Part shown: positions 12,253 through 61,822 of the stretch, one piece after another
Layout of the letters: each line of letters begins with the position of its first letter
Numbering within the stretch: position 1 is the first letter of the stretch
Notes under the pieces: model-generated
Seen by the model: the letters and a program-made list of their open reading frames with translations, nothing else
What the model was told of the DNA's origin: nothing
Databases searched by the model: none
Source of the DNA: Nitrososphaerales archaeon
GTDB taxonomy: Archaea; Thermoproteota; Nitrososphaeria; Nitrososphaerales; CADDZS01
Assembly: GCA_030041355.1 (NCBI GenBank)
Contig: JASHNZ010000053.1
Location: 1 to 64,000, forward strand
Direction of reading: 5' to 3'
DNA length: 64,000 bases
Position numbers and translations under genes: made by a program

Positions 12253-15200
12253 TCAGGGCCTCCTCACAGCAGGCATCTTGATCTTCAGCGTAGTAGATGC
12301 TAGCTCCTCACCTGACAATCCATTCACAAACTTGCTCATCTCCACTGCCTTGTCGGCAAACCTCTTTCCTTCGGCCGCGCTCACCCACCACAGTTGCAAC
12401 CTGTCAGGATTGAGTCCTCTAGTCTGAATCATGTGCCTCCAGCGCTCGACTCTCTTCAGTGTCTGTTCATTGGCACTGATGTAATGGCAGTCTCCCGGGT
12501 GGCAACCCGTGACGAGGATCCCTCCCGCACCCTTTGAGAATGCGTATAGCACGAACTTCTGCGAAACTCTGCCCGAGCACATTGTTCGAATTATTCTCGT
12601 GTTGGATGGATACTGGATCTTCATGATTCCAGCCAGGTCGGCTCCCGCGTACGAACACCAGTTGCACGCGAAGATCAATACTTTCTTCGTTGGATTCTCT
12701 TCGAGCGCCGCGTCGATCTGGGTCATTATCTGGTTGTCCGTGAAGCCTTCTTGAGTTAGGGCACCATCCACAGTGCATTCTGCAACGCAGGTGCCACAGC
12801 CCTGGCACATCGCGGAGATGAACTCAATGCTCTTTCCAACCTGTCCCCTGATTGCGCTGTAAGCGCAGACAGGTACGCACCTCTGGCACTTTGTGCACTT
12901 TGCGGGATCGAGTATTGCGACGAAAGGCTCACGCTCTATCTCATCCCTGGAGATTATCGTTGCGGCCTTTGCCGCTGCGGCGAGCGCCTGTATTGCTGAC
13001 TCCCTAACAGTCTTGGGGTACTGGGCGGTGCCCGCAAGCAAAACCCCCTGAACCGCAGCTTCTACAGGACCCAACTTTGGATGACTCTCAAGGAGGAAAC
13101 CCGCTTGGTCAACTGAGACCTTGAGCTGCTGGACCACCCCTCCTTCTTCCTTGATCGGGGCAAGTCCTATGTTTAGGACAGTAATGTCTGTCGGCAGAGA
13201 AACCTCCTTCCCAAGCAGTTCGTCTTTTAGAACCATCGAACCGTTCTCAAAGCGTATTGCACCTTCCGGCGGTAGATCCTGAGGGTATTGAAGGAAGACC
13301 ACGCCTTCCTTGCAGGCCTGATTGTATTCCTCCTCGCCGTACCTAGAAAACGTGCGTATGTCTTTGTAGAGAACCCTTACTTCATTGCCGTTCTCCTTGA
13401 GCCTCTTCGCCTGATTGATCATCGTCTGGCAGCAGAATCTGGAGCAACCTGTTCCATCGTTTCTTGATCCAACGCAGGAAACTATGGAGACCTTCTTGTC
13501 CTTGACGCTGTCAATGCTCTTCTCCATCTCCAAACTAGTCATTATGTTTGGATTTGTTCCATAACCAAATTCGCTTGGCTTGTAAGGATCTGAACCCATT
13601 GCAAGGACAACGGCGCCCGCTGGAATATGCGTGCCATCGGAGAGGTGCACGTCGTAGTTTCCGACAAAGCCAGTGATGCTGTCAACCTTCGTCCCCAAGT
13701 GAACAATGGAGCCGCTCTCGTCCAGTTCCTTGCTTAATTGGTCTAAGAGGTCTTTCGACTTTATTCCAAGAGGTGCAAGTTCTGACATCTCATTGAGAAT
13801 GCCTCCCAGCCTGTCTTTCTTTTCGACAAGGTGGGTCTCGAATCCTTGCCTTGCCAGATTTGCAGCAGCTATCATGCCCGCAACTCCTCCGCCGACAATT
13901 AGAGCGCTCTGCGTAACTGGGAACTTCATCGGTTCAAGCGCTTTCATCATTGACGCCTTGAGCACCGCCATCTTCACCATGTCTTTGGCCTTTGCGAGAG
14001 CTCCGTCCTTGTCGGTCTTGTGGACCCAGCTGTCCATGTTTCGCACGTTGGCCATTTCTAGGACGTAGCGGTTTAGACCGGCTCGACCAAGAGATCCTTG
14101 GAAGGTGGAGTAGTGAGTCTTCGGAGAGCATGCTGCTACGACGACGCGATTGATCTTTTTCTCTTTCAGGACGCCGCTGATGTCGGTAAGAGTGTTAGCG
14201 GCGCAGGAGTAGCGCTGGTCCTGTGCGTGAACAACGCCTGGGAGCGTCTTCGCGTACTCCACGACCTCTTTTACGTCGATTACCCCAGCAATATTCGAAC
14301 CGCAGTGGCAAGCAAAAACGCCAATCCTAGGCTCTCCCTCAGAGCTCAGCTGAACCACCTGCGCGGCCTCGGGCCAATTCTTTGCAGTTGTGTGTGTCAG
14401 GGCCTTTGCGACAGCGGCGCCTGCTTCAGTCACGCTGTCTGGGATGTCCTTTGGTCCCGTTGCGCATCCAGCGAGATACACTCCTGGTCTAGAACTTTCA
14501 ACAAAACCCGCAGTGGAGTCGAGAGTCTTGAAGAATCCATCTTCGCCAACCTCGATTCCCAGAGTTTTTGCAAGCTCCGCTGTTCCAGATGATGGGACCG
14601 CCGCTAGAGCAAGGACAACGAGGTCATACTTTTTCTTCTGAGCCGAACCTTGACTATTTTCAGTGTCCTCGAATGTAACGTCTAGACCAGACTCCCCGCG
14701 AGAAACCTTCGCGGGTCTTCCTCTGATGAATCTAACCCCGGAATCTCTCGTTCTCTCGTAGAATTCGTCAAAACCCTTTCCAAATGCCCTAATATCCATG
14801 TAAGCGACATCGACTTGCTTTATCCCGTGGTCTTTGATTTGGTAGGCTTCTTTGATGCTGTACATGCAGCATATCCTTGAACAGTACTTGCGGTATCTTT
14901 CGTCTCTTGATCCAGCGCAGAGAACAAACAACACATTCTCCGGATGCTTTCGATCTGATGGCTTGATTATCTCACCGAGGCTAGGACCAGATGCTTGGAG
15001 CAATCTTTCGAGTTCCATTGAAGTAATGATGTCGGGGTGCTTTCCGTAACCGAACTCGCCGAGCATCGAGCCATTTAGAATGTCAAAGCCCGTCGCGACA
15101 ATTACTGAAGCAACGTCCCGCTCTATCCTCTTTGGCTTCATGTCAAAGTCTATTGCATTCGGTCCGCACGCATCAGTGCATCTGCTGCAAGGAAGATAGT

Positions 15201-15702
15201 TCGGAGGCTCGTTGAGGCAGTTGTCCTCATCTATAACATAAGGCCCAGGAACTGATTGCTCTATCGGAGTGTATATCGCCTTGCGCGCGGCCATGCCCAC
15301 GTCAAATTCATTTTTTAGAATAACCGGACAGACTGCGATGCAGTCTCCGCAGCGCGTGCAGGCGTCGGTGACGTACCTGGACTTTTGCGTGATTACTGCT
15401 CTAAAGTGCCCTGGCTTACCCTCGAGTCTCTTGAGTTCGGACATTGTGAGAAGTTCGATGTTTGGATGCAGTCCGACCTCGCTCATCTTCGGCGATTCTA
15501 TGCAGATGGAGCAATCAAGCGTCGGAAAGTTCTTGTCCAGAACTGCCATCTTTCCGCCGACGGTTCCCTCCTTCTCAACGAGTACAACCCTCAGGCCAGC
15601 GTTTGCCGCGTCAAGAGCTGCTTGGATGCCCGCTATTCCTCCGCCGATGATCAGAATCGTATCTGCGTTGGACTGCTCCTGGGTAAGGATTTGCTCAGAC
15701 AA
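12253..15702 (-). CDS. hdrA: HdrA-like flavoprotein with two FAD modules and a C-terminal MvhD domain
   Basis: The protein has about 1149 residues, roughly twice a classical HdrA. Order: FAD module 1 (IIGGGIAGIQAAL, with Fe-S cysteines CTRCGDCIAVCP and CSRCTDACG), the HdrA domain with FACHCGSNIAGVIDV and YSCAANT, FAD module 2 (IVGGGVAGMIAAA), two [4Fe-4S] motifs (CTKCQRCVPVC, CQGCGTCVAEC), and an MvhD-like tail (CNWCSYAGADLAG, GCHPGDCHY). This resembles QmoA and QmoB joined in one chain. I chose a TTG start at 15702-15700: it overlaps the korC stop and has GGAGGAGG about 11 bases upstream. An ATG-type start at 15765 would overlap korC by 70 bases and add a non-conserved leader. The role is flavin-based electron confurcation or bifurcation (inference). 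Confidence 0.85.
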   Translation of the reverse strand: MSEQILTQEQSNADTILIIGGGIAGIQAALDAANAGLRVVLVEKEGTVGGKMAVLDKNFPTLDCSICIESPKMSEVGLHPNIELLTMSELKRLEGKPGHFRAVITQKSRYVTDACTRCGDCIAVCPVILKNEFDVGMAARKAIYTPIEQSVPGPYVIDEDNCLNEPPNYLPCSRCTDACGPNAIDFDMKPKRIERDVASVIVATGFDILNGSMLGEFGYGKHPDIITSMELERLLQASGPSLGEIIKPSDRKHPENVLFVLCAGSRDERYRKYCSRICCMYSIKEAYQIKDHGIKQVDVAYMDIRAFGKGFDEFYERTRDSGVRFIRGRPAKVSRGESGLDVTFEDTENSQGSAQKKKYDLVVLALAAVPSSGTAELAKTLGIEVGEDGFFKTLDSTAGFVESSRPGVYLAGCATGPKDIPDSVTEAGAAVAKALTHTTAKNWPEAAQVVQLSSEGEPRIGVFACHCGSNIAGVIDVKEVVEYAKTLPGVVHAQDQRYSCAANTLTDISGVLKEKKINRVVVAACSPKTHYSTFQGSLGRAGLNRYVLEMANVRNMDSWVHKTDKDGALAKAKDMVKMAVLKASMMKALEPMKFPVTQSALIVGGGVAGMIAAANLARQGFETHLVEKKDRLGGILNEMSELAPLGIKSKDLLDQLSKELDESGSIVHLGTKVDSITGFVGNYDVHLSDGTHIPAGAVVLAMGSDPYKPSEFGYGTNPNIMTSLEMEKSIDSVKDKKVSIVSCVGSRNDGTGCSRFCCQTMINQAKRLKENGNEVRVLYKDIRTFSRYGEEEYNQACKEGVVFLQYPQDLPPEGAIRFENGSMVLKDELLGKEVSLPTDITVLNIGLAPIKEEGGVVQQLKVSVDQAGFLLESHPKLGPVEAAVQGVLLAGTAQYPKTVRESAIQALAAAAKAATIISRDEIEREPFVAILDPAKCTKCQRCVPVCAYSAIRGQVGKSIEFISAMCQGCGTCVAECTVDGALTQEGFTDNQIMTQIDAALEENPTKKVLIFACNWCSYAGADLAGIMKIQYPSNTRIIRTMCSGRVSQKFVLYAFSKGAGGILVTGCHPGDCHYISANEQTLKRVERWRHMIQTRGLNPDRLQLWWVSAAEGKRFADKAVEMSKFVNGLSGEELASTTLKIKMPAVRRP

Positions 15703-16267
15703 CTTGCTTCGCCTCCTCCATGTGTTCGCCGGTGGCTTTTGAGGCCAGCTCATAACCAGCATCAAGTGCTTTGAGATTGAATTCTATTGCTTTCGGGAAT
15801 CGATCCGCGAGCGCTTTCTTGAGCGACTCGATGCTCACGGATTCCACGAGCGCCGCAATTGATCCAACCAAGACCACATTCGCCGCGATCTTTCGCCCTA
15901 ATGATTCAGCTATCGAGGTAGCTGGGACCGGAATCATCCTGAGATCCTTCCTTGTAACGCCAGAAAAACTCACAAGTTGTTTTTCTGCAATTACCGCACC
16001 GTTTCCCTTGATCATTTTCAGGTTCAAGTCAAGTCCTTCTTGGTACATCGTAACGAGAAGATCGAGTTTTGTGACTAGAGGATAATCAATTGGCTCAGTG
16101 GAGATCACAATGTCCGCCCTAGACCACCCTCCTGTGACATATGGGCTGTAGCCCTCTGTCATTACTGCCTCCTTACCCTCATAGAGCACGGCAGCCCTGG
16201 CTAGGATGTTCCCCGCGGTAATTGCTCCCTGCCCGCCGAGTCCAGTTATTCTGATCTCTGAACGCAT
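15695..16267 (-). CDS. korC: 2-oxoacid:ferredoxin oxidoreductase, gamma subunit
   Basis: This 190-residue gamma subunit opens with the family motif RITGLGGQGAITAGNILA and has the YSPYVTGGWSRADIVIS segment, both typical of the gamma chain that docks CoA in 2-oxoglutarate/2-oxoacid ferredoxin oxidoreductases. The gene is separated from korB by 7 bases, and its stop overlaps the TTG start of hdrA. It works with korA, korB and korD to oxidise a 2-oxoacid plus CoA to acyl-CoA, CO2 and reduced ferredoxin. Confidence 0.9.
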   Translation of the reverse strand: MRSEIRITGLGGQGAITAGNILARAAVLYEGKEAVMTEGYSPYVTGGWSRADIVISTEPIDYPLVTKLDLLVTMYQEGLDLNLKMIKGNGAVIAEKQLVSFSGVTRKDLRMIPVPATSIAESLGRKIAANVVLVGSIAALVESVSIESLKKALADRFPKAIEFNLKALDAGYELASKATGEHMEEAKQVV

Positions 16268-20921: not shown

Positions 20922-22427
20922 TCACTCTCGAGGATATTGCAGAAGGAGTTTAGACACTTGCTCCCTCTTCTCTTTTGGCCCAGCTTCTCGATTTTCCTCC
21001 TTCGTCATATCGAGAGGTGTTTTGCCTTTGTCTGTCTTGGCATTGACGTCAGCTCCATGCTCCAACAGTAGTGTTGCCAACTCCAGATTTCCACTTTGGG
21101 CTGCGGCATGGAGTGGAGTAAATCCGCCTTCCTGCCTTGCGTTGACTTGCGCACCGTGATTTAGTAGGAGTTTTGGTATCGCTACTTGACTTTGAGCCAC
21201 TGCGGAATGTAGTGGCATAACTTTCATCATATTTTTCGCGATTGCATTGACGTCGGCTCCTTTTTCGATCAAGTAGCTTGTTACGTCAAGCTGTCCAAAG
21301 AACGCGGCTAGGTGCAGTGCCGTAAAGCCATCGATCGAGAACGAATTTACAGCTCTCGGATCTTTTGCAAGAGTATCCCTTACTATCTCTAATCTCCCAG
21401 TCATCGCTGCTTCGAAAAGATTTAGCGTTGCTCCTTTCGAAATTAGCATCTCTGCAATTTTGGGCTGACCGTAATAAGTTGCGACTATAACGGGAGTCAT
21501 GCCCTGCAAATCTCTCACGTTGGCCAAGCTAGAGTTCCTTTCGATCATCTGCTCCGCTTTTGCTACTTCCCCTTGCTTTATCGCTTTGAAGAATTCATCG
21601 GACATTATTTGTACTTCCTTCGGAATCTTTCCGTGTATGCGAGGGTAAAAGAGTTCGGCGGTCAAATGACTGCCGTCGGTTTTGACTAACACGCTTGGGA
21701 AAGGCCTGTTTTTCGATTCACTTGTTTTCCGAAAATTGACGCTCATGTAAGGCGCGAGACTATTCAAAATTTTGTTTTCGGCTTTTCTAACGTGAGTCTC
21801 AAATGTTGTCCGCGGAATACCGGCTAGCTGTGACATGCTTTCGAATTTGGTATCTCTTGGAACTCTGAAGTACCCAAGCTCAATAGCAGTAAGCAACGCC
21901 TGCGCTTGTCGATCAGTAATCTTGGAAAAAAGCTCACTTGTCGAAAACGTCAAAGACTGCTCCATTGGAATACCCTTGACCGGAATCCGCGTTGTCACCC
22001 GAAGAGTTCCTCTCTTTTCGAGTTCGGAAAACATTCTTGGCAACAGCGATTCATCGATTCCAATGATCCTATAGTGAGCCCAACCCTTTTCGTAAGTAAT
22101 TGGCATTAGGCAAAGCGATCCAAATTCACTAATAGAATCAAGAATACTTTTTCTCTTTTCGAAATTCTTGAGAGCGGCTATGATAACGTCATGGTAAGAT
22201 AGCACGCTCGCACGTATGGCCAGTTGTCGCTTCTTTTCGAGTTGCTCGAGATCTGCCCGGAGATGTCTCATAACTATCGGCTCTCGGCAAAAGAACTGGA
22301 GAACTTCGTCCCTCTTCGATCCTCCGTTGTTTAACCAACGGGCGACCAATAGAGTAGGGTACTTGAATGCCAGCTTGCCGAAGAGGTCCTGCCTAGCATC
22401 ACGATAATCGAACGAGATCGACTGCAC
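20922..22427 (-). CDS. HTH_10 (bacterio-opsin-activator type) regulator fused to ankyrin repeats
   Basis: The 501-residue protein starts at GTG. Residues about 1-165 form a Bat-like sensor region of the usual archaeal kind. Residues about 168-225 are a classical HTH_10 DNA-binding domain: ITDRQAQALLTAIELGYFRVPR, then LAGIPRTTFETHVRKAENKIL. After a linker with FYPRIHGKIPKEVQ, about six ankyrin repeats follow (for example GFTALHLAAFFGQLDVTSYLIEKGADVNA and GFTPLHAAAQSGNLELATLLLEHGADVNA, given as regions). HTH_10 proteins are common in archaea, but a C-terminal ankyrin array is unusual and implies control by protein-protein contact. It is 66 bases downstream of a second scaffolded regulator. Confidence 0.8.
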   Translation of the reverse strand: MQSISFDYRDARQDLFGKLAFKYPTLLVARWLNNGGSKRDEVLQFFCREPIVMRHLRADLEQLEKKRQLAIRASVLSYHDVIIAALKNFEKRKSILDSISEFGSLCLMPITYEKGWAHYRIIGIDESLLPRMFSELEKRGTLRVTTRIPVKGIPMEQSLTFSTSELFSKITDRQAQALLTAIELGYFRVPRDTKFESMSQLAGIPRTTFETHVRKAENKILNSLAPYMSVNFRKTSESKNRPFPSVLVKTDGSHLTAELFYPRIHGKIPKEVQIMSDEFFKAIKQGEVAKAEQMIERNSSLANVRDLQGMTPVIVATYYGQPKIAEMLISKGATLNLFEAAMTGRLEIVRDTLAKDPRAVNSFSIDGFTALHLAAFFGQLDVTSYLIEKGADVNAIAKNMMKVMPLHSAVAQSQVAIPKLLLNHGAQVNARQEGGFTPLHAAAQSGNLELATLLLEHGADVNAKTDKGKTPLDMTKEENREAGPKEKREQVSKLLLQYPRE

Positions 22428-50013: not shown

Positions 50014-50185
50014 TTTCTGTGTTCAAGTGTCGCCTTGCGCGCGTATTCAAATCAAAAAGACTTTACGGTTGCAAATTCTCGTATAATTGCGGGTCGCTTG
50101 CATATCGAACACCGATACGTGACGCATGAAAAAAGCCTTTTATCTGTCCTTTTATAGAACGCAGGTACATATTACTGATCCCTAT

Positions 50186-50929
50186 ATGAAAGCCCCGAAA
50201 AGTATTGGAATAATTGCAGTCTTAGTTGCAATTCTGTTTCTGATTAGCGCAGTCGGTACTATCCAGGCGGGTTTTGCACAGTCCGGCGGTGCTTATAGTG
50301 CTCCGAGTGTCACATACTTTACTGCCCGTTGGGGCTGCGGCGTGAGAATCAACCTTACCTGCGGACTAGGATACGAACACAGGCTTACCCCCACTAATGG
50401 CAAAGGTTTTGATTTGAACATTCCAGGCGATTTTGCCACCTCTCAGCAGATTGAAGAGAACAGTTCGGTCTATGACGCCCTAACTAACTACAACGGTCAA
50501 GCTGGTCTCGAGCTCGGCTTTGTCGATTACAATATTGGAACGATTAGTCAAATCAACAACATTACGATAAGCGGCTATGGGAATTATACCGTAAAACTAT
50601 GGTTTGACGTTACCGGTAGCGGTTACGGGGTTTGGAACTCAAGCAACCAGAGGATCAGCATGGCAAACGATTCGTACGCAATTGTCCAAACAGACCGCCG
50701 TACCGGGCCTCAGTTCATAGGGCCCGATACGCGACTGCAGCTTACTTTCGTCGACGGGGACAAGTGCACCAACAGCAACTTCAATTGCATTTACACCCTT
50801 GGAACTCTCAAATCGTTGTGGGGAGGTTTGGGTGTGGATCCCGAAGTAGCTTTTCTCGTGGTCCTGGATTCGCAGCAAAGCGGCGAAATATCGTTCATGA
50901 TAAATTCGGTAACGTTCAACCTGAGCTAG
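50186..50929 (+). CDS. Exported protein of unknown function
   Basis: Translation probably starts at the ATG at 50186, just before a standard signal peptide (MKAPKSIGIIAVLVAILFLI.. ending AQA/GFAQ), which gives about 247 residues. An ATG 20 codons earlier would place polar residues in front of the signal. The mature part is all-beta in appearance, with WGCGVRINLTCGLGYEH (a Cys pair) and DGDKCTNSNFNCIYTLG (a second Cys pair) that could form disulfides, and several sequons. No family was recognised; a lectin-like sandwich is possible. Confidence 0.5.
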   Translation: MKAPKSIGIIAVLVAILFLISAVGTIQAGFAQSGGAYSAPSVTYFTARWGCGVRINLTCGLGYEHRLTPTNGKGFDLNIPGDFATSQQIEENSSVYDALTNYNGQAGLELGFVDYNIGTISQINNITISGYGNYTVKLWFDVTGSGYGVWNSSNQRISMANDSYAIVQTDRRTGPQFIGPDTRLQLTFVDGDKCTNSNFNCIYTLGTLKSLWGGLGVDPEVAFLVVLDSQQSGEISFMINSVTFNLS

Positions 50930-52774: not shown

Positions 52775-54679
52775 TTACTTGCTGGTAGACACGATATACC
52801 AAGTCGCTGGCGAGTTGCCACCGGCAATCAACTGGACTCCATTTTCCTTGGGAAGTGATTTGGAAGACGCTCCTTCGATCGTATCTCCACTCTTCGGTTT
52901 TATTGTGACTGCAAAATCCGTGCCAGTGTTTTTGATGTACAGGATCATTCCTTGTATCGCTTTAGGCAAATTGACAGTTTTCGCTGCCGCAGAAGCATTT
53001 ACCAGCACTGCAAAGCAATTATCTGCAACGCAGTAAGTTGAACAAGACGGTGTAACCACCTTCGCGCCTATGCTTCCTTTTACCTGTAGTGTCGTCGTCG
53101 GAGAGCAAGTTCCTATCCCAAACCATCCGCATTTGTTCACGACGGAGAGAGGGGTGCACGAGCTGTTGCGCCACTGCTGAAGATTCGCGCTTTGGGATGA
53201 TGCACCTCTTGCCACGATTGGAATCGCGCCAGAACCGCACGCGAACGCTTCGACACCGATGCCAGTGCAACTCCCGGCAGCGACGCCTACTTCTTTACAA
53301 GAATATCCCACTACACCGTAGTGACATAAACTCCTCCCATAGACGCCTATGGATTTGGGAGAATATCCCAATACACCGTAGGAAGAGCAACTCGAGCCGT
53401 AGACGCCTATTGATTTGGGAGAATATCCCGTAATTTGTTTAGCAGAAATGTTGCCAGCTGCGTCCACAAAAGCAAGAGTCGCATTGCAATGGTTTCGCCA
53501 GTCTTGCAAATGGGAAGTCTGACATACTGCACCCGTTGCCACGATTGGAATCGCGCTAGGACCACAAGCAAGTCCTCGAACACCTATGTCATACAAAGAC
53601 GATCCGCATACTCCTATGGAACAGATACTGCCCGCGCAGACGCCTACTGATTTACAAGAATATCCCCCTACGCCTACTGAATTAGGAGAATGTCCTCGTA
53701 CACCGAAGTTACTAGAAGAATATCCTTCTACACCTACGGAACAGCAACTCACGCCATAGACGCCTGCACCTTTCGGAGAGGTGCCGTAGACACCCCATCC
53801 GTATCCATTCTGAGATCCGTAGACACCGATGCCTGACCCACCAGTTCCCTCATTTACCCCACGCACGCCCGCAGAATAGGCTCCTGGCGTTGAACTGGAA
53901 ACAACGCCGAGGACCCCCGCTGCAAAGGCAGACGAACTCGCGGTGGTTCCCTCAACACCATAGGAACACTCACTAGAGCCATAGACGCCTACGCATTTGG
54001 GAGAATATCCCTGCACACCGTAGGAAGAGCAACTCGAGCCATAGACGCCTGCTGATTTAGGAGAACATCCCTCGACACCGTAGGAACAGCAACTCTTTCC
54101 TTGTACACCGTAGGAAGTGTGACTATGCCCATAGACGCCTGTTGATTCGAAAGAATATCCCTCTACGCCGTAGGAAAAGCCACTACGCCCATAGACGCCT
54201 GCTGAATCATTAGAACATCCCTTTACTCCGTACGAAGAGCAGCTAAACCCACAGACGCCTACGCCGCTAATCGATGTTCCCTCTACACCTATTCCAGTTT
54301 CTGCGACTCCTGCGACACCTGCTACCGAACAAGTTTTTCCTTCAATGGCAATTCCTGTCGGACAGCAGTAGACTACATGAGATTCCGGATGAATGCTAGA
54401 GCCTTTTGTACACGAAGTGGCGGAAGATTCAGGAATTATCTTGCTCCCTAAGAGAGTACCTCCAACCGCGGCTGCAGCCCCAAACAATGCAGCTTTCTTG
54501 AGAAAGCCCCTTCTGTTTGCAGAATCGATTGTGGATTCGCAGGCAAGCTTGCTCTCACCTTTGAAGAGACTCTTGTCATTGCTGTTACTAACAGGGGGTA
54601 CGACTTTTCTCGGAGGAGGATTTCTCTGAATTGCAGACTCAATCGTAGATTCTGGACAAACGTTCTGCTGAACTTCCAT
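52775..54679 (-). CDS. Tat-exported Cys-rich repeat protein, paralogue 1
   Basis: About 634 residues from the ATG at 54679. The conserved N-region MEVQQNVCPEST.. is followed by the Tat motif NRRGFLKKAAL and a hydrophobic stretch at about 60-77. After a CCPTGIAIEGKTCS segment come decamer repeats (GVYGxSxxSY alternating with GVxGYSPKSV) in two blocks. They are interrupted and followed by a fibre-type module SAIPIVA/VRGASxQxxxLQxWRN, with GIGTCSPTTTLQVKGSIGAK leading to the conserved C-terminal domain (ending GGNSPATWYIVSTSK). The paralogues share this end almost unchanged. It is a probable surface fibre or adhesin. The gene is directly downstream of tatA. Confidence 0.75.
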   Translation of the reverse strand: MEVQQNVCPESTIESAIQRNPPPRKVVPPVSNSNDKSLFKGESKLACESTIDSANRRGFLKKAALFGAAAAVGGTLLGSKIIPESSATSCTKGSSIHPESHVVYCCPTGIAIEGKTCSVAGVAGVAETGIGVEGTSISGVGVCGFSCSSYGVKGCSNDSAGVYGRSGFSYGVEGYSFESTGVYGHSHTSYGVQGKSCCSYGVEGCSPKSAGVYGSSCSSYGVQGYSPKCVGVYGSSECSYGVEGTTASSSAFAAGVLGVVSSSTPGAYSAGVRGVNEGTGGSGIGVYGSQNGYGWGVYGTSPKGAGVYGVSCCSVGVEGYSSSNFGVRGHSPNSVGVGGYSCKSVGVCAGSICSIGVCGSSLYDIGVRGLACGPSAIPIVATGAVCQTSHLQDWRNHCNATLAFVDAAGNISAKQITGYSPKSIGVYGSSCSSYGVLGYSPKSIGVYGRSLCHYGVVGYSCKEVGVAAGSCTGIGVEAFACGSGAIPIVARGASSQSANLQQWRNSSCTPLSVVNKCGWFGIGTCSPTTTLQVKGSIGAKVVTPSCSTYCVADNCFAVLVNASAAAKTVNLPKAIQGMILYIKNTGTDFAVTIKPKSGDTIEGASSKSLPKENGVQLIAGGNSPATWYIVSTSK

Positions 54680-54730
54680 GGCTCTGTGGCCAGAGTTCAA
54701 GACTTAGTTAAACTTTCTCATTTTCATAAG
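54680..54730 (-). promoter_or_regulatory. Shared promoter block, paralogue 1
   Basis: About 50 bases upstream of the ATG are identical to the block before paralogue 3 (58364-58414). On the coding strand it has TTTAACTAAG 33 bases before the ATG, placed as a TATA box, and the dyad CTCTGGCCACAGAG directly before the start. Confidence 0.55.
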
Positions 54731-54739
54731 GGTAACAGA

Positions 54740-55078
54740 CTAGGCTTTATTTAATTTGAACGATAGCTCGGACGCAATCTGCTCTCGAGTCTTACCTTCG
54801 GTTACAATGCCTTCTCTTTGAGCCGCAAGGATCAGAGGATCATTAGCTTGGACATTTGTTTGCGGTTGATTTGTGTTATTGAGGTTATTTGGGGTAGTTC
54901 TGCTTTCTCCGGGAGTTGGTGGCGCTCTTGTTCCCTTCCACGCACTTTCAAACTCTCGTCGTGCCTGCCCTAAAGATTTCGCGAACTGCGGAATCTTGCT
55001 GGCTCCGAATAGAAAGACTACTACGGCAGCTATCAGTATCCAAACGACAGGATCATCCCAAGCCAACTCACTAATCAC
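54740..55078 (-). CDS. tatA: Twin-arginine translocase subunit TatA
   Basis: The 112-residue protein begins at GTG with a short N-terminus, a membrane helix (about residues 11-26, VVWILIAAVVVFLFGAS), and the hallmark FGASKIPQFAKSLGQARREFESAWKG amphipathic helix. The tail has an Asn/Gln/Pro linker and a small helical end, LAAQREGIVTEGKTREQIASELSFKL, which is not part of ordinary TatA. TatA forms the Tat pore with TatC, which is not in this window. It lies 69 bases after paralogue 2 and about 60 bases before paralogue 1, all in the same direction, next to four proteins carrying Tat signals. Confidence 0.9.
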   Translation of the reverse strand: MISELAWDDPVVWILIAAVVVFLFGASKIPQFAKSLGQARREFESAWKGTRAPPTPGESRTTPNNLNNTNQPQTNVQANDPLILAAQREGIVTEGKTREQIASELSFKLNKA

Positions 55079-55147
55079 TGCTCAGCTAACTATTTTGTGT
55101 TCGAAGAAGGAAGCTATCAAGGGAGCTTATCATCCCAAAAACAAAAA

Positions 55148-56677
55148 CTACGAGATGTACGAGATGATATACCAGGTCGCAGGGGAGTTGCCTCCGGCAA
55201 TGAGTTGGACTCCAAATTTCTTCTTTAGTAATTTGGATGTTGCTCCTTCAATGGTGTCTCCGCTTTTAGGCACTATTGTGACTGCAAAATCCGTGCCCGT
55301 ATTCTTGATGTACAGGATCATTCCCTGTATCGCCTTGGGAAGATTGACAGTTTTTGCAGCCGCAGTAGCATTTACTAGCACTGCGAAGCAATTATCTGCA
55401 ACGCAGTAAGTTGAGCAAGACGGTGTAACCACCTTCGCGCCTATGCTTCCTTTTACCTGTAGTGTCGTCGTCGGAGAGCATGTGCCCAACCCAAGCCATC
55501 CGCACTTGTTTACAACGCTCAATGGCGTGCCTGAACCGTTCTGCCATTCTTGCAGGGGCGCAATTTGACTAGAGCTTCCCTTTGTGACAAGTGGTATAAC
55601 GCTAGCTGCATCTGAAGCAGCAAAGACACCGATTCCGCAAGCGACTCCCGAGCAACCCTGTACACCGATCTTCCCTCCGGTACCTCTGACGCCTTGGGTC
55701 ACTCCCACGCCGTACAGTCCAGAATACCCGCAAGCCGTTGAGCAACCAAAGACCCCGTTTCCCCCGGCTGAGACGCCAACTACACCGCCCTTGACTCCGG
55801 TTCCAAAAACTCCCTCGCTATAGGTCGAGTCCGCATAGATTGCATGGCTACCTTCGGAATATGCCGCGAGACCTACCCCGTTTACAGAGCATGCGACAAT
55901 AGCGCTACCGCAAATCACACTTGTTATCGCTTCAAGCTTTGCGCCTGGTGCACTAGTTCCTATTCCGAAGTTGCCTTCCTTGTCTACAACACTCATCGGT
56001 GTTCCATAACAGTTTTGCCATTCCTGCAGATGTGAAGATTGGCATTTCGATCCTCTCGCAACAAGGGGAATCGCGCTAGGACTACCCGCGACCCCTTCGA
56101 CAGCGATGCTACAGCAACTTGTGCCATAGACGCCTACGTTTTTAGGAGAATAGCCATAGACGCCTATGTTTTTAGGAGAGTACCCTTGTACACCGGGGTT
56201 TGAGCAACTCCAACCAAAGACGCCTACGCCTTTGGGAGAATATCCCAATACACCGTAGTAAGAGTAACTCTCGCCATAGACGCCTATTCCACTCGTCGCC
56301 GCGCATCCAAACACACCTTGTCCTGAACAAGTTTTTCCTTCAATGGCAATTCCTGTCGGACAGCAGTAGACTACATGAGAATCCGGGTGAACGCTAGAAC
56401 CTTTTGTACAGGAACTAGCAGAAGATTCAGGAATTATTTTGCTTCCCAGAAGAGTGCTTCCAACCGCAGCCGCCACGCCTATTAGGGCAGTCTTTTTGAG
56501 AAAGCCTCTTCTGTTTGCAGAATCAATTGTAGATTCGCAAACGAGCTCGCTTTCCCCTTTGATAGTACTCTTGTCACTACTGATACTAGCAGAGGGTACG
56601 ACTTTCTTTGGAGGAAAATTTCTTTGATTCGCAGACTCCATCGTAGATTCGGGACAAACAGGCTCTTGAACTTCCAT
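55148..56677 (-). CDS. Tat-exported Cys-rich repeat protein, paralogue 2
   Basis: The shortest copy has 509 residues. It has the same N-region (MEVQEPVCPEST), Tat motif NRRGFLKKTAL and CCPTGIAIEGKTCSGQ segment, but only six or so decamers before a fibre module (SAIPLVARGSKCQSSHLQEWQN, GNFGIGTSAPGAKLEAI). A second, divergent block follows with GVGLAAYSEG, GVFGTGVKGGVVGVSAGGNGVFG and GVRGTGGKIGVQG, where the decamer is Gly-rich and lacks Cys. Then a second copy of the fibre module and the common C-terminal domain (ending WYIISYIS, as in paralogue 4). It starts at ATG 56677; the TTG seven codons upstream that other copies have is out of frame here, which supports the ATG for all. Confidence 0.75.
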   Translation of the reverse strand: MEVQEPVCPESTMESANQRNFPPKKVVPSASISSDKSTIKGESELVCESTIDSANRRGFLKKTALIGVAAAVGSTLLGSKIIPESSASSCTKGSSVHPDSHVVYCCPTGIAIEGKTCSGQGVFGCAATSGIGVYGESYSYYGVLGYSPKGVGVFGWSCSNPGVQGYSPKNIGVYGYSPKNVGVYGTSCCSIAVEGVAGSPSAIPLVARGSKCQSSHLQEWQNCYGTPMSVVDKEGNFGIGTSAPGAKLEAITSVICGSAIVACSVNGVGLAAYSEGSHAIYADSTYSEGVFGTGVKGGVVGVSAGGNGVFGCSTACGYSGLYGVGVTQGVRGTGGKIGVQGCSGVACGIGVFAASDAASVIPLVTKGSSSQIAPLQEWQNGSGTPLSVVNKCGWLGLGTCSPTTTLQVKGSIGAKVVTPSCSTYCVADNCFAVLVNATAAAKTVNLPKAIQGMILYIKNTGTDFAVTIVPKSGDTIEGATSKLLKKKFGVQLIAGGNSPATWYIISYIS

Positions 56678-56727
56678 GGCTCTTTGGTCGAAGTTCCAGA
56701 CTTAGATAAGCTTTTACCTTTTCATGA
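56678..56727 (-). promoter_or_regulatory. Shared promoter block, paralogue 2 (diverged)
   Basis: This copy keeps the layout, with CTTATCTAAG in place of TTTAACTAAG and CATGAAAAGG further out, but the dyad before the start has decayed and the spacing differs by one base. It lies in the 57 bases between paralogues 3 and 2. Confidence 0.45.
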
Positions 56728-56734
56728 GAGCAAA

Positions 56735-58363
56735 TTACGTGGAGGACGAGACGATATACCAGGTCGCCGGGGAGTTGCCTCCAGCGATGAGAGTGACACC
56801 GTCTTTCTTCGCAAGAGATTTTGATGTTGCTCCCTCAATGGTGTCTCCGCTTTTCGGTTTTATTGTGACTCCAAAGTCCGTGCCCGTATTTTTGATGTAC
56901 AGGATCATTCCCTGTATCGCTTTAGGCAAGTTGACAGTTTTTGCAGCCGAGGTAGCGTTTACTAGTACTGCAAAGCAATTATCCTGGACGCAGTAAGTTG
57001 AGCAAGACGGAGCAGCCACTTTCGCGCCTACACTTCCATTCACCTGAAGAGTAGTCGCGGGAGAAAGAGTTCCGACTCCGAAGTTTCCGCAGCTGTTCAC
57101 GACGACCCTTGGCTTGGCTGGTTGTCCGACATAGAACGATCCGTCAGGAATCTTGCAAGCATTGCAAACGCCGGCCACGCCCGCGTTCCAATCGACTGGA
57201 GAGCTGTCTGCGTTCTCAAACTTTACGATGGAACTTCGATCGCCAGAGCAAGTAGAATTCTTGAACTCGGCGACGAGCGGGGTGAAGGCGGTCGCTTGAA
57301 TGGCGAGGCCTCGTGTACTCTCCGCGAGCACTCCGGGCCCATTACAGAAAGAAAAGCCCTCCACACCGGGGCTGTGGTATGAAAACCCTACAACTCCCGC
57401 TTGGCAAACCGAAAATCCCTCTACGGATGGATGGGAGCTAGAAGACGCAAAGATCCCGCCGTTGACGCAGAGCGTTCGGCAGGGAGTAACAGTGCCGATG
57501 CCCACCTTCCCAGCATTGGTGATGCTCATTCTTTTTGCAGAGCCTGTGTAAAAATCCAACCCGTATTGGTTTGGGGAGCCACAAGCGCGTGCGTCGGCGA
57601 TTCCCTCCCCACTACCACATCCTCCAAAGACTATTCCCGGATACAAGGAACTGCCGTTGTTTGTATGGTCGGTGTTAACAAAGACGTTCTTGGAAGCAGC
57701 GGAAGAGCCCACGACACAAACAGCGGTAGCGTGACAGTTACCGACGGCCTTTATCGCATTTCCGAAGTATGATACTGCGTACACGCCGGGTCCACAATTG
57801 GACACTCCCTGAACACCAGGCCCACGCCAAGAGAACCCACAGACCCCTGTTCCAGGAGCATTGTTGCACGGGTAGTTGCATGCGGAGCCCCTGACGGCCA
57901 CTCCGCAAATTGTCCCTCCATTGACCGCGATCGACCCCAGGCTGGCTGCATATCCACAAAAGGCCCCTCCGATAATGCGAGACTCTCCTCTGAAGGCAGG
58001 CCCGTAACATGTGAAAGCCTCAACCACCGGTCCTGAAACACAACAATAGAATACATGATCATCTGGATGGACGGAAGCTCCTTTCGAGCTCTCGCAGGAG
58101 CTCATAGAGGATTCGGGAATTATTCTGCTACCTAGAAGAGTGCTTCCAACCGCAGCCGCCGCGCCTATTAGGGCAGCCTTCTTGAGAAAACCCCTTCTCA
58201 AGGATGAATCGATGGTAGACTCGCACGCGAGCTTGCGCTCTCCTTTGAAGGTACTCTCGTCATTACTGATACTAACAGGGGGTAGAACTTTTTTTGGAGG
58301 AGCATTTCTTTGAACCGCAGACTCGATCGTGGATTCTGGACAAACAGGCTCTTGAACTTCCAT
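56735..58363 (-). CDS. Tat-exported Cys-rich protein, paralogue 3 (mosaic)
   Basis: About 542 residues from the ATG at 58363. The N-region and Tat motif (SLRRGFLKKAAL) and the last 110 residues match the other copies. The centre is different. It has few regular decamers (GVCGFSWRG, GVQGVSNCG, GVYAVSYFG), then an insert DHTNNGSSLYPGIVFGG.. YGLDFYTGSAKRMSITNAGKVGIGT of the type seen in phage tail-fibre and S74-chaperone-associated proteins, then VEGFSVCQAGVVGFSYHSPGV. It shows that one signal and one C-terminal domain serve exchangeable central modules. Confidence 0.72.
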   Translation of the reverse strand: MEVQEPVCPESTIESAVQRNAPPKKVLPPVSISNDESTFKGERKLACESTIDSSLRRGFLKKAALIGAAAAVGSTLLGSRIIPESSMSSCESSKGASVHPDDHVFYCCVSGPVVEAFTCYGPAFRGESRIIGGAFCGYAASLGSIAVNGGTICGVAVRGSACNYPCNNAPGTGVCGFSWRGPGVQGVSNCGPGVYAVSYFGNAIKAVGNCHATAVCVVGSSAASKNVFVNTDHTNNGSSLYPGIVFGGCGSGEGIADARACGSPNQYGLDFYTGSAKRMSITNAGKVGIGTVTPCRTLCVNGGIFASSSSHPSVEGFSVCQAGVVGFSYHSPGVEGFSFCNGPGVLAESTRGLAIQATAFTPLVAEFKNSTCSGDRSSIVKFENADSSPVDWNAGVAGVCNACKIPDGSFYVGQPAKPRVVVNSCGNFGVGTLSPATTLQVNGSVGAKVAAPSCSTYCVQDNCFAVLVNATSAAKTVNLPKAIQGMILYIKNTGTDFGVTIKPKSGDTIEGATSKSLAKKDGVTLIAGGNSPATWYIVSSST

Positions 58364-58420
58364 GGCTCTGTGGCCAGAGTTCAAGACTTAGTTAAACTTT
58401 CTCATTTTCATAAGAGTCAT
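58364..58420 (-). promoter_or_regulatory. Shared promoter block, paralogue 3
   Basis: Identical to the paralogue 1 block over about 50 bases, and matching the paralogue 4 block for about 20 bases further upstream (CATCC.GTGCTCAAGCTTC). It contains TTTAACTAAG and the dyad CTCTGGCCACAGAG before the start. Confidence 0.55.
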
Positions 58421-58557
58421 CCAGTGCTCAAGCTTCAATCTGTCGGGATTTAGTTTTGATACGACGACTTCAAAGCCATTGTTTCCCCTGAAGACTAGCA
58501 TACTAAGGCCTAGTTTATCTACTCGAGAGAAAGTGCTTCTGGAGAAGATATTCGATT

Positions 58558-59262
58558 ATGAGCCAAAATCTTGAATCTCAATTTCAGTCGCAACAAGCTC
58601 TTCAGCAGCAAGGGGTTGGGGGCGCTCAGGCAGTTGGGGTTGTCCCGCCACAACAGGGAGACGTTCTGTGGGAGTTTGCAGACATAGGTTACGACACCGG
58701 GAAAAAATTATGGTTCGTGCAGCTGTTTGATTCGGTCAATCAGAACGTGGGTTTCTACACTGCAAAGAACATCACAATGAACAACGGATGCGCCATACAA
58801 TACCAGTGGAAGGATATGCAGGGGAGACCCTTCTGGCACGTGAGAGAGCGTTTTCAATCTTCAGAGGTCGAAGGCTTTCAGATCGATATGAAAGGTAATC
58901 TGATCATTAATTTCAAAAGGAACCACGTTGAAAATGACAGTAGCATTCCAAAGAATTTCGCATATCTGCAGTATGCTTATCATCTCACTACAAAAGAAAC
59001 TCCACAATCTGTTGACAGGTCTCCTATGGGCTTTGTAGAGTTTTGTAATCAAGCAGAAGATGTCATAGGGCGCTTGAACAACAGGTGGATAATCGTCGAA
59101 GATGTCAATCGAAGGACAACTGGCGAGTTGCCTAAAATTAGGATAAGAGTAGATAGGAAGGATATTGGCAGGATCATAGTCAGTAGAAGTTCCGTAATCA
59201 TAATGAGTAAAGAGGGACGCCCTAGCCAGCAGCTAGATGTGAGTCAAAATCCGAAGGATTGA
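58558..59262 (+). CDS. Unrecognised protein within the repeat-protein cluster
   Basis: The 234-residue soluble protein has a Gln-rich N-terminus (residues 1-35, many QQ), then an all-beta-looking body: GDVLWEFADIGYDTGKKLWFVQLFD, NVGFYTAKNITMNNGCAIQYQWKD, FWHVRERF, FQIDMKGNLIINF. A helical stretch (GFVEFCNQAEDVIGRLNNRW) and a C-terminal strand pair (IRIRVDRKDIGRIIVSRSSVIIM) follow. It has no signal peptide or membrane helix. It is transcribed against the repeat genes on either side. I do not recognise the family; context suggests, but does not prove, a role with the exported fibres. Confidence 0.55.
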   Translation: MSQNLESQFQSQQALQQQGVGGAQAVGVVPPQQGDVLWEFADIGYDTGKKLWFVQLFDSVNQNVGFYTAKNITMNNGCAIQYQWKDMQGRPFWHVRERFQSSEVEGFQIDMKGNLIINFKRNHVENDSSIPKNFAYLQYAYHLTTKETPQSVDRSPMGFVEFCNQAEDVIGRLNNRWIIVEDVNRRTTGELPKIRIRVDRKDIGRIIVSRSSVIIMSKEGRPSQQLDVSQNPKD

Positions 59263-59390
59263 ATCGGACTCAGATAGATCTTTACGCAATCCTAGAGCTT
59301 CCCTTTGTTTTTGAAGATTTCTTGCAAAACTCAACACTATCTGGCCCGGACAAATCACTTTAAAGTCACATGAGCAGATGAGAAAAAACC

Positions 59391-59702
59391 ATGACCGATG
59401 CCAATATGAAAATGAGAATTACGAGTGTCACGCAAGAAGACCCTTCAATGCGCGTGATGCCCGGGCCACTTGTGCCGAATAGAATTTACCTTTCGGTCGT
59501 AAGAGAAGACCTTTCTCAACAGAAAGCTGACGAATCAAATATGCCAAGGCGAGAATTAGAGCGCCCACTTGGGCCTCAAATGATGAGACAGAGGAATCCC
59601 CTTGTGATCCCCGTCAGTATGGAAGAGTACGAAGGGCTGGGGAGACCAACTGTGGGAGACGTGCTTGATGTCATCGTCAAACATCGCACAAAGGAATCAT
59701 GA
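59391..59702 (+). CDS. Small unrecognised protein within the repeat-protein cluster
   Basis: The 103-residue basic protein begins MTDANMKMRITSVTQEDPSMRVMPGPLVPNR and ends with a strand-helix VSMEEYEGLGRPTVGDVLDVIVKHR. The latter resembles the GRPTVGDxLxV phrase of small archaeal DNA/RNA-associated proteins, but I make no assignment. It starts 128 bases after the preceding rightward gene and ends at a strong hairpin. The two rightward genes probably form one unit. Confidence 0.5.
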   Translation: MTDANMKMRITSVTQEDPSMRVMPGPLVPNRIYLSVVREDLSQQKADESNMPRRELERPLGPQMMRQRNPLVIPVSMEEYEGLGRPTVGDVLDVIVKHRTKES

Positions 59703-59723
59703 GCTGCAAATCAAAAAAATTGC

Positions 59724-59762
59724 TTCCAATCTACAGCTAAAACAAGCCACTGTAGATTGGAA
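59724..59762 (-). terminator. Hairpin terminator between convergent genes
   Basis: TTCCAATCTACAG at 59724-59736 and CTGTAGATTGGAA at 59750-59762 form a perfect 13-bp stem with a 13-base loop. On the minus strand it is followed by a run of seven T (59713-59719), as in an intrinsic-type terminator for paralogue 4. It also separates the convergent rightward gene. Confidence 0.7.
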
Positions 59763-59781
59763 TGAGTCGAAAAAGGTTTCA

Positions 59782-61761
59782 TTATGAGATGTACGAGATG
59801 ATGTACCAGGTCGCAGGGGAGTTGCCTCCGGCAATGAGTTGGACTCCAAATTTCTTCTTAAGAGATTTGGATGTTGCTCCTTCAATCGTGTCTCCGCTTT
59901 TCGGTTTTATGGTAACTTCAAAATCGGTGCCCGTGTTTTTGACGTACAAGATCATTCCCTTTATTGCACTGGGCAGGTTAACTGTCTTTGCCGCTGAAGT
60001 AGCGTTTACCAAGACTGCGAAGCAACTATCTCCCACGCAGTAAGTTGAGCAACACGGAGTAGCTACTTTCGCGCCTATGCTTCCATTCACCTGTAGCGTC
60101 GTCGCCGGAGAGCATGTGCCTATTCCAAACCATCCGCACTTGTTCACGACGGAGAGAGGAGTACAAGAATTATTGCGCCACTGTTGAAGATTCGCACTTT
60201 GGCATGATGCGCCTTTCGCAACGACTGGAATCGCGCTAGGATTACCAGCAAGTCCTTGAACACCTATGTGATTAAAAGACGATCCGCGTACTCCTATGGA
60301 ACAACAACTGGTCGCACAGACGCCTACTGACTTTGTAGAGGATCCCGCCACGCCTACTGAATTAGGAGAATATCCCACTACACCGGAACTACAGGTACTC
60401 TGCCCATAGACGCCTATGTATCTGGGAGAAAGTCCCTTTACACCGAAGAAACAGCAACTCTGCCCATAGACGCCTACTGATTTCGAAGAAAATCCATAGA
60501 CGCCTACTGATTTGGGAGAAAATCCTTGTACACCGTAGGAACAGCAACTCTGCCCATAGACGCCTGCTAATTTGGAAGAAGATCCATAGACGCCTACTGA
60601 TCTGGGAGAATGTCCCTCTACACCGTAGGAACAGCAACTAATCCCGTAGACGCCTACTGATTTCGAAGAAGATCCCATTACACCATCCCCACAGGAACTC
60701 TGCCCATAGACGGCTACGTTTTTGGGAGAATGTCCCCATACACCGTAGGAACAGGAACTCTGCCCATAGACGCCTGCTAATTTGGAAGAAGTTCCTTGTA
60801 CACCGTAGTAAGAGCAACTCTGGCCCAAGACGCCTATTGATTTAGAAGAAGATCCTTTTACACCGATGCTACAGTTACTCTTGCCGTAGACGCCTACGTT
60901 AGAAGGAGAACATCCTTCCACACCGTACAAAGAGCAACTCGAACCGTAGACGCCTACGCATTTGGGAGAATATCCTACGACACCAATGTTAGAGCAGCTC
61001 TCGCCATAGACGCCTATTGATCTAGAAGAAAATCCTTGAACACCTATTCCAAAACACGTGCTTCCCTTGACTCCACAGCCACCGACGGAAGATCCGAAGA
61101 CGCCTAGTTTAGGAGAAGATCCGTATACACCGTAGGAACAGCAACTCTGCCCGTGGACGCCTACGTCAAAAGGAGAATATCCTTCTACACCGTAGGAAGA
61201 GCAACTCTGCCCATAGACGCCTACGCTTTTGGGAGAATGTCCCTCTACACCGTAGGAAGAGCAACTCTCCCCTTTAACGCCTACACAACAGGCACTCGTG
61301 CCATACACGCCATATGATTTGGAAGAAGCTCCATTTACACCGAAGAGAGTGCAACTATACCCATAGACGCCCCTTCCAGACACGGAGCATCCGTAGAGAC
61401 CAATTCCTGAACAAGTTTTTCCTTCAATGGCAACTCCACTAGGGCAGCATTCGAATAACTTTGCGTCTGGACGAGCAGACGACTCTCTGACGCAGGATCT
61501 AGCCGAGGATTCAGGAACTAATCTGCTTCCCAGAAAAGTACTTCCAACCGCAGCTGCAGCTCCCAGCAATGCAGCTTTTTTGATAAAGTCCCTTCTCAAT
61601 GATGAATCGATGGTAGACTCACAGGCAAGCTTGCTCTCCCCTTTGGAAGTACTCTTGTCACTACTGATACTAGCAGAGGGTACGACTTTTCTCGGAGGAG
61701 CATTTCTCTGAACTGCAGACTCCATCGTGGACTCGGGACAAACAGGCTCTTGAACTTCCAT
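59782..61761 (-). CDS. Tat-exported Cys-rich repeat protein, paralogue 4 (longest)
   Basis: About 659 residues from the ATG at 61761. Layout: N-region with an internal half-repeat (PESTMESAVQRN at 9-20 and CESTIDSSLRRD at 47-58), Tat arginines at 56-57 followed by DFIKKAAL and a hydrophobic core to about 77, the CCPSGVAIEGKTCS segment, then about 38 decamers in a row (counted by eye). The decamers alternate between GVYGQSCCSY and GVEGHSPKSV types, so Cys recur every 20 residues. The fibre module NPSAIPVVAKGASCQSANLQQWRN, GIGTCSPATTLQVNGSIGAK and the common C-terminal domain follow. I infer a beta-solenoid or trimeric fibre exported already folded. Confidence 0.78.
   Translation of the reverse strand: MEVQEPVCPESTMESAVQRNAPPRKVVPSASISSDKSTSKGESKLACESTIDSSLRRDFIKKAALLGAAAAVGSTFLGSRLVPESSARSCVRESSARPDAKLFECCPSGVAIEGKTCSGIGLYGCSVSGRGVYGYSCTLFGVNGASSKSYGVYGTSACCVGVKGESCSSYGVEGHSPKSVGVYGQSCSSYGVEGYSPFDVGVHGQSCCSYGVYGSSPKLGVFGSSVGGCGVKGSTCFGIGVQGFSSRSIGVYGESCSNIGVVGYSPKCVGVYGSSCSLYGVEGCSPSNVGVYGKSNCSIGVKGSSSKSIGVLGQSCSYYGVQGTSSKLAGVYGQSSCSYGVWGHSPKNVAVYGQSSCGDGVMGSSSKSVGVYGISCCSYGVEGHSPRSVGVYGSSSKLAGVYGQSCCSYGVQGFSPKSVGVYGFSSKSVGVYGQSCCFFGVKGLSPRYIGVYGQSTCSSGVVGYSPNSVGVAGSSTKSVGVCATSCCSIGVRGSSFNHIGVQGLAGNPSAIPVVAKGASCQSANLQQWRNNSCTPLSVVNKCGWFGIGTCSPATTLQVNGSIGAKVATPCCSTYCVGDSCFAVLVNATSAAKTVNLPSAIKGMILYVKNTGTDFEVTIKPKSGDTIEGATSKSLKKKFGVQLIAGGNSPATWYIISYIS
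60360..61390. repeat. Coding 60-bp/30-bp tandem repeats
   Basis: At the DNA level the region is a chain of about 60-base units, each with CATAGACGCCTA, then GGGAGAAT or GGAAGAA, then CACCGTAGGAACAG. Each unit is two 30-base halves that encode one Cys-type and one SPKS-type decamer. Neighbouring units are often near-identical (for example 60540-60560 and 60720-60780), which points to recent unit gain or gene conversion. Similar, shorter arrays occur in paralogues 1 and 2. Confidence 0.75.
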
Positions 61762-61822
61762 GGCTCTCTGGCCAGAATTCAAGACTTAGTTAAACTTTCG
61801 CATTTTCATAAGGGTCATCCGG
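61762..61822 (-). promoter_or_regulatory. Shared promoter block, paralogue 4
   Basis: It differs from the paralogue 1/3 block at only about three positions over 50 bases and matches paralogue 3 for roughly 20 bases more. TTTAACTAAG is 33 bases before the ATG, and the dyad reads TCTGGCCAGA here. Confidence 0.55.

Follow-up and report, generated by a model that had tools for sequence, protein, structure and literature searches.

A lineage-restricted archaeal protein family with Tat-type signals, cysteine-rich repeats and a phage tailspike-type C-terminal domain

How would an archaeon deliver large, cysteine-rich repeat proteins to its surface, and does a tatA gene that lies among four such genes serve them specifically? 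This question is raised by a locus within a 64,000-nucleotide stretch of DNA from a Nitrososphaerales archaeon, the whole of which is called the window here. The reading that we favour, with a probability of about two in three, is that the four genes encode secreted surface fibres of a family that is specific to the lineage and has expanded; the fibres would be exported in the folded state by Tat via the general TatA/TatC pool. Within this combined explanation, the assignment of the proteins as Tat substrates is the strongest part and their role in binding is the weakest.

Layout of the locus

The four paralogues (P1 to P4) are all encoded on the minus strand, and a gene matching the TatA family PF02416 (E 1e-11) is placed between P3 and P4 on the same strand (Table 1). 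The minus-strand ORFs and the PF02416 match confirm the original prediction of four paralogues with a tatA embedded among them. Its description of the set as co-directional holds in part. P2, P3, tatA and P4 form a compact co-directional block, with spacers of 57 nt (P2-P3), 69 nt (P3-tatA) and 60 nt (tatA-P4), whereas P1 is split off by two plus-strand ORFs, neither of which has a family match in Pfam, NCBIfam or PHROGs.

Three of the four paralogues (P1, P2 and P4) share an identical TATA-like element of 16 bases, which lies about 30 nt ahead of a conserved ATG and was not found before tatA. It would act as a promoter. The true start is likely the conserved ATG (MEVQ...), a choice based on the conserved upstream elements and the alignment only. 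Translation from this ATG places the twin arginine at about residue 56, behind a long conserved n-region.

Table 1 Features of the fibre locus (window coordinates) and relics of the family in other loci (coordinates of the named locus).
Feature	Coordinates	Strand	Details
Paralogue P1 (P0001)	59782..61782	-	666 aa from TTG; probable ATG at 61761; RRDFIKK, 34 decapeptide repeats, CTD
Paralogue P2 (P0002)	56735..58384	-	549 aa; probable ATG at 58363; RRGFLKK, few repeats, internal tail-fibre-like segment, CTD
Paralogue P3 (P0003)	55148..56677	-	509 aa, ATG start; RRGFLKK, repeats, CTD
Paralogue P4 (P0004)	52775..54700	-	641 aa; probable ATG at 54679; RRGFLKK, repeats, CTD
tatA (P0005)	54740..55078	-	112 aa, GTG start; PF02416
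P1 Tat signal with extended n-region motif	61495..61626	-	ACESTIDSSLRRDFIKK
P2 Tat signal	58097..58228	-	ACESTIDSSLRRGFLKK
P3 Tat signal	56411..56542	-	VCESTIDSANRRGFLKK
P4 Tat signal	54413..54544	-	ACESTIDSANRRGFLKK
P1 C-terminal phage-tailspike-type beta domain (CTD)	59794..60138	-	
P2 CTD	56747..57091	-	
P3 CTD	55160..55504	-	
P4 CTD	52787..53131	-	Copy modelled and fold-searched
Putative promoter element, P1	61783..61798	-	AAAGTTTAACTAAGTC; TATA-box-like, about 30 nt before the ATG
Same element upstream of P2	58385..58400	-	AAAGTTTAACTAAGTC
Same element upstream of P4	54701..54716	-	AAAGTTTAACTAAGTC; between tatA and P4
Opposite-strand ORF between P1 and P2	58558..59262	+	234 aa; breaks the co-directional run
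Opposite-strand ORF between P1 and P2	59391..59702	+	103 aa; breaks the co-directional run
Family relics	L139 321-392; L140 7103-7159; L055 10020-10220; L054 628-852; L048 4154-4237		Isolated signals, isolated CTD ends, signal-CTD fusion

Elsewhere in the window, a 1170-aa protein with FAD and 4Fe-4S domains and a C-terminal FlpD domain (12253-15765) is encoded next to a cysteine-rich ORF (11093-12250, 4.7% Cys). A single protein at 20922-22427 combines an HTH_10 DNA-binding domain with ankyrin repeats.

Signals, repeat centre and C-terminal domain

All four window paralogues scored above the curated cut-off of the Tat-signal model TIGR01409, with RRDFIKK in P1 and RRGFLKK in the other three. 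The RRxF motif is present in each of the 25 genes of the family that carry the C-terminal domain (CTD) and have their 5' end present. In these 25 genes the h-region is only moderately hydrophobic (mean Kyte-Doolittle 1.15) and is always followed by K or R, and a basic residue at this position is a Sec-avoidance feature. When contig-end pieces were included, 27 signals were available, all of them different in DNA sequence and with several Arg codons in use, so it is at the protein level that selection keeps the twin arginine. The genome encodes both TatA and TatC (four tatA and one tatC). Computation thus supports the window paralogues as Tat substrates, in line with the twin-arginine signals originally ascribed to them.

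The signal forms part of a longer conserved motif of an unusual kind, C(P)ESTI[ED]SANRRxFIKKAA. Its CPESTIES part occurs twice in many genes, and the upstream copy lacks a functional RR context. A profile of the signal was searched against 61 related genomes, and all strong matches were members of the CTD family, its contig-end pieces or relics. The conserved n-region around the twin arginine probably serves in targeting, proofreading, docking or chaperone binding, and it offers a clear, testable Tat n-region motif. A bolder proposal treats C(P)ESTI[ED]SANRR as a docking tag peculiar to the family: a dedicated chaperone, or specialised TatA paralogues, would read it, and a phage-derived fibre repertoire would thereby be committed to folded export; this would amount to a lineage-specific Tat sub-pathway whose fibre centres are shuffled. 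We put it forward tentatively and think it rather improbable.

The variable centre is built of GVxGxSxxxx decapeptides in an alternating 20-residue pattern. In P1, 34 units are perfect decapeptides of this type, and the autocorrelation peaks at 10, 20, 30, 40 and 50 residues. Cysteine makes up 4.5-6.3% of the four paralogues, compared with a median of 0.79% in 85 nearby ORFs. The cysteine content and the decapeptides, both computed here, bear out the initial description of cysteine-rich repeat proteins, and the cysteine pattern could give disulfide ladders. A full-length AlphaFold model of P3, made with an eight-row alignment, had a pLDDT of 37 and was not used, so the stalk fold is proposed from the repeat pattern alone. 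Literature searches on GVYG repeats and on the CTD fibre family found nothing relevant. Secreted proteins of Deinococcus (CP058535 and NZ_CP083459 plasmids) have the same GVxG type of decapeptide repeat but differ from the archaeal family in their Sec-type signals and C-terminus and are not cysteine-rich. The decapeptide repeats alone therefore do not demand Tat.

Judged by profile comparisons and structure prediction, the CTD is a phage tailspike or tail-fibre beta module. It was aligned by hhalign to a Microcystis phage protein (98.4% probability, E 7e-15) that is encoded near tail tubular protein A, and by sequence profile to the solved tailspike PDB 24qj (E 1e-4). Matches to several PHROG tail families and to PF25692 were weak. 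An internal segment of P2 also resembles tail-fibre families. The predicted structure of the P4 CTD (pLDDT 73.5, pTM 0.69) was compared with the PDB using Foldseek, and the top matches included 24qj (E 2.5e-5), a Klebsiella phage KP1-type baseplate part, TSP4 and T4 gp9; 305 viral models were matched at E<=0.001. Together with the beta-type decapeptide repeats, this predicted fold gives substance to the earlier view of the proteins as fibre-like. Known tailspike and fibre modules akin to the CTD are parts of trimeric fibres or spikes.

The archaeal CTD is thus homologous by profile and fold to modules of the Acinetobacter phage Solidus tailspike (24qj), TSP4 of CBA120 and T4 gp9. Unlike these, it is found on chromosomal genes with Tat signals and cysteine-rich repeats, in a multi-copy expansion. 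A scan of viral contigs with one CTD and a tblastn search of phages with the window CTD as query returned no match, and weak matches to tail proteins were obtained by phage tblastn with a divergent CTD paralogue. Matches of the CTD profile to polyubiquitin entries in the PDB were discarded as an artefact, as they add up weak matches to the repeated ubiquitin units, and hardly any of these was significant singly.

Distribution and divergence of the family

Within the taxonomic family of the archaeon, three of nine genomes were hit by the CTD profile, with 7, 18 and 11 matches when fragments are counted, but these copy numbers are uncertain, as the draft genomes are fragmented and several matches sit at contig ends. 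The CTD was not found in the remaining six genomes. The 18 matches are scattered over ten contigs of one genome, among ordinary chromosomal genes. In a phylum-wide sample of 398 genomes, CTD matches occurred solely in the window genome and in three genomes of another family of the order. By these sequence comparisons, the CTD family is real and lineage-restricted. The lineage would correspond to soil group I.1c/Gagatemarchaeaceae, in which genome expansion was reportedly driven by gene duplication (PMC10640624).

The matches in the other family of the order are secreted fibre-like proteins (L131 9612-11234, L132 6653-8539 and L133 9059-11659) of extracellular type that share the same module (E 1e-10 to 1e-14). 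They differ from the window proteins in that no Tat motif, CPESTIES region or decapeptide repeats were seen and each genome has a single match. Sec-type N-termini were found in L131 and L132.

Within the genome, the segments of the copies have diverged at quite unequal rates. Identity between copies was 82-90% in the CTD (five copies), 73-86% in the n-region and 28-58% in the centre. For the four paralogues by themselves the values were 82-89% in the CTD and 31-58% in the centre, and the predicted combination of a variable centre with a nearly invariant C-terminus was therefore upheld. Two copies are mosaics by sequence. On contig C70, a window-like N-terminal half (h-region up to 91% identical) is joined to a CTD that is only 42-46% identical, and the copy on contig C23 has a divergent h-region flanked by conserved ends. 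Relics of the family were also present, including 5' ends alone, CTD ends alone and one case in which the signal runs straight into a CTD fragment that contains stops. These relics show birth and death of copies, and the fibre genes look like a mosaic family of the birth-and-death type.

In two genomes of the genus, a fibre gene is adjoined by an array of KaiC-like ATPase genes (PF06745), each paired with a gene for a membrane protein (L057, G000 contig C23, 118-6155; L039, G004 contig C276, 3015-4452).

Role of tatA and the export route

The original prediction was that of a dedicated, self-contained export module for surface fibres, in which the embedded TatA serves the four window fibres specifically. 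The gene does have two paralogues of its own orientation less than 70 nt away, and there are precedents. In Bacillus subtilis, phoD-tatAdCd also has a tatA beside the gene of a Tat substrate, and strict dependence of the substrate was demonstrated experimentally (PMC3068169). Campylobacter jejuni also has more than one TatA per genome, and mutants showed that TatA1 and TatA2 are functionally distinct paralogues with non-identical substrate sets (PMC4148689). However, no fibre substrates are involved in C. jejuni, and tatC is linked in B. subtilis, whereas the sole tatC of the archaeal genome is on contig C20, unlinked to the window, and the linkage of tatA to fibre genes is unique to the window. 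On the approximately 22 other CTD contigs in three genomes, tatA was not found, and in G004 and G007 the tatA matches fall on other contigs. The number of tatA expected by chance within 3 kb of CTD genes in the three genomes is about 0.14, with P(>=1) of about 0.13; this was computed with three tatA for G007, where two are supported, and the true figure is slightly lower. The linkage in the window is thus near chance for the family, and the CTD occurs repeatedly without a tatA nearby, an outcome that the original prediction had itself named as refuting it. The dedicated exporter therefore fails as a feature of the family and is not supported beyond this one locus. The window tatA also lacks the upstream element shared by its neighbours and is one of four in its genome. 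Between one and five tatA matches were found in each of 21 genomes searched (the window genome and 20 relatives), and several tatA also occur in CTD-free genomes, such as G002 with four to five tatA and no CTD. The extra C-terminal helical tail noted in the window TatA is real but not special, as it is common to TatA across the order. We consider a dedicated module decidedly unlikely.

A weaker relation is seen in the position of tatA copies in general. Of 25 copies in nine genomes, four lie within 3 kb of an above-cut-off Tat-signal gene, with 0.32 expected (P = 0.00025), and three remain when the window locus is left out (P 0.004); these P values are indicative, since the test was devised after the neighbourhoods were seen. 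This excess counts in favour of a dedicated module and leaves room for a more specific role of tatA. The partners differ: in G004 the neighbour is a divergently oriented gene for a 119-residue Tat-signal protein, and in the window genome one partner is a 2Fe-2S protein. A modest functional link between tatA and substrates is possible, and this archaeal family may tend to keep extra tatA copies close to substrate genes. The TatA tree did not resolve and gives no ancestry for the window tatA.

Ends that are conserved and centres that diverge among the copies of one genome also fit a variable-surface system with programmed recombination, in which the 5' and 3' ends would act as tracts for swapping centres between expressed genes and silent fragments. 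The mosaic C70 and C23 copies and the truncated 5' and CTD relics, including the signal fused to a CTD piece, would be expected of such a system, but the same pattern can come from ordinary duplication and gene conversion. Moreover, neither a recombinase nor a common flanking site was recognised beside the copies, which are dispersed among ordinary chromosomal genes, and the n-region motif is kept at the protein level with synonymous variation and not as a fixed DNA site. We regard programmed recombination as unlikely. The resemblance of the CTD and the internal P2 segment to tail-fibre families could further point to provirus or tailocin fibre genes, that is, structural parts of a virus-derived particle with an incidental Tat-like signal. 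However, an export-type signal is present in every gene that has its 5' end, and up to 18 CTD matches are spread over ten contigs in one genome. The neighbours look chromosomal, and phage structural genes were not recognised beside the family among the window neighbours (by Pfam and partly by PHROGs) or in the ORF lists by which the other contigs were read. We give a viral particle very little credence.

We return to an expanded fibre family that would use the general Tat machinery. Assembly would take place in the cytoplasm and, by analogy, yield a trimer with a cysteine-rich stalk of beta repeats, capped by the phage-tailspike-type beta-sandwich module. The folded fibre would leave by Tat, with its signal recognised by the single TatC and its passage aided by the general pool of TatA paralogues, and would then be displayed on the surface. 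The variable centres would set the length and the binding surface of the fibre, and their diversity would arise as copies are duplicated, exchange segments or are lost. The clustered tatA may raise the local supply of TatA but is not a defining part of the family. The Tat route is better known for cofactor enzymes. If this reading is true, an archaeal lineage displays diversified phage-spike-like fibres via Tat, which would explain how pre-folded beta-fibres reach the surface and suggest a candidate surface-recognition system in uncultivated archaea.

Other tatA neighbourhoods had features of their own. The window encodes a secreted-type protein without a Pfam match (50126-50929), whose only paralogue (67% identical) is near another tatA of the same genome (G000 contig C80, 24887-25693), with none in eight relatives. 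A segmental duplication of the tatA loci was considered for this shared gene and rejected, as its two copies are oriented differently and no others are found. In two genera, tatA is preceded by the same two conserved genes, in unchanged order and without a Pfam match (L061, G000 contig C80, 7270-10467; L146, G006 contig C22, 2-2148), and on contig C80 these two genes are themselves preceded by a gene with a Tat-like signal.
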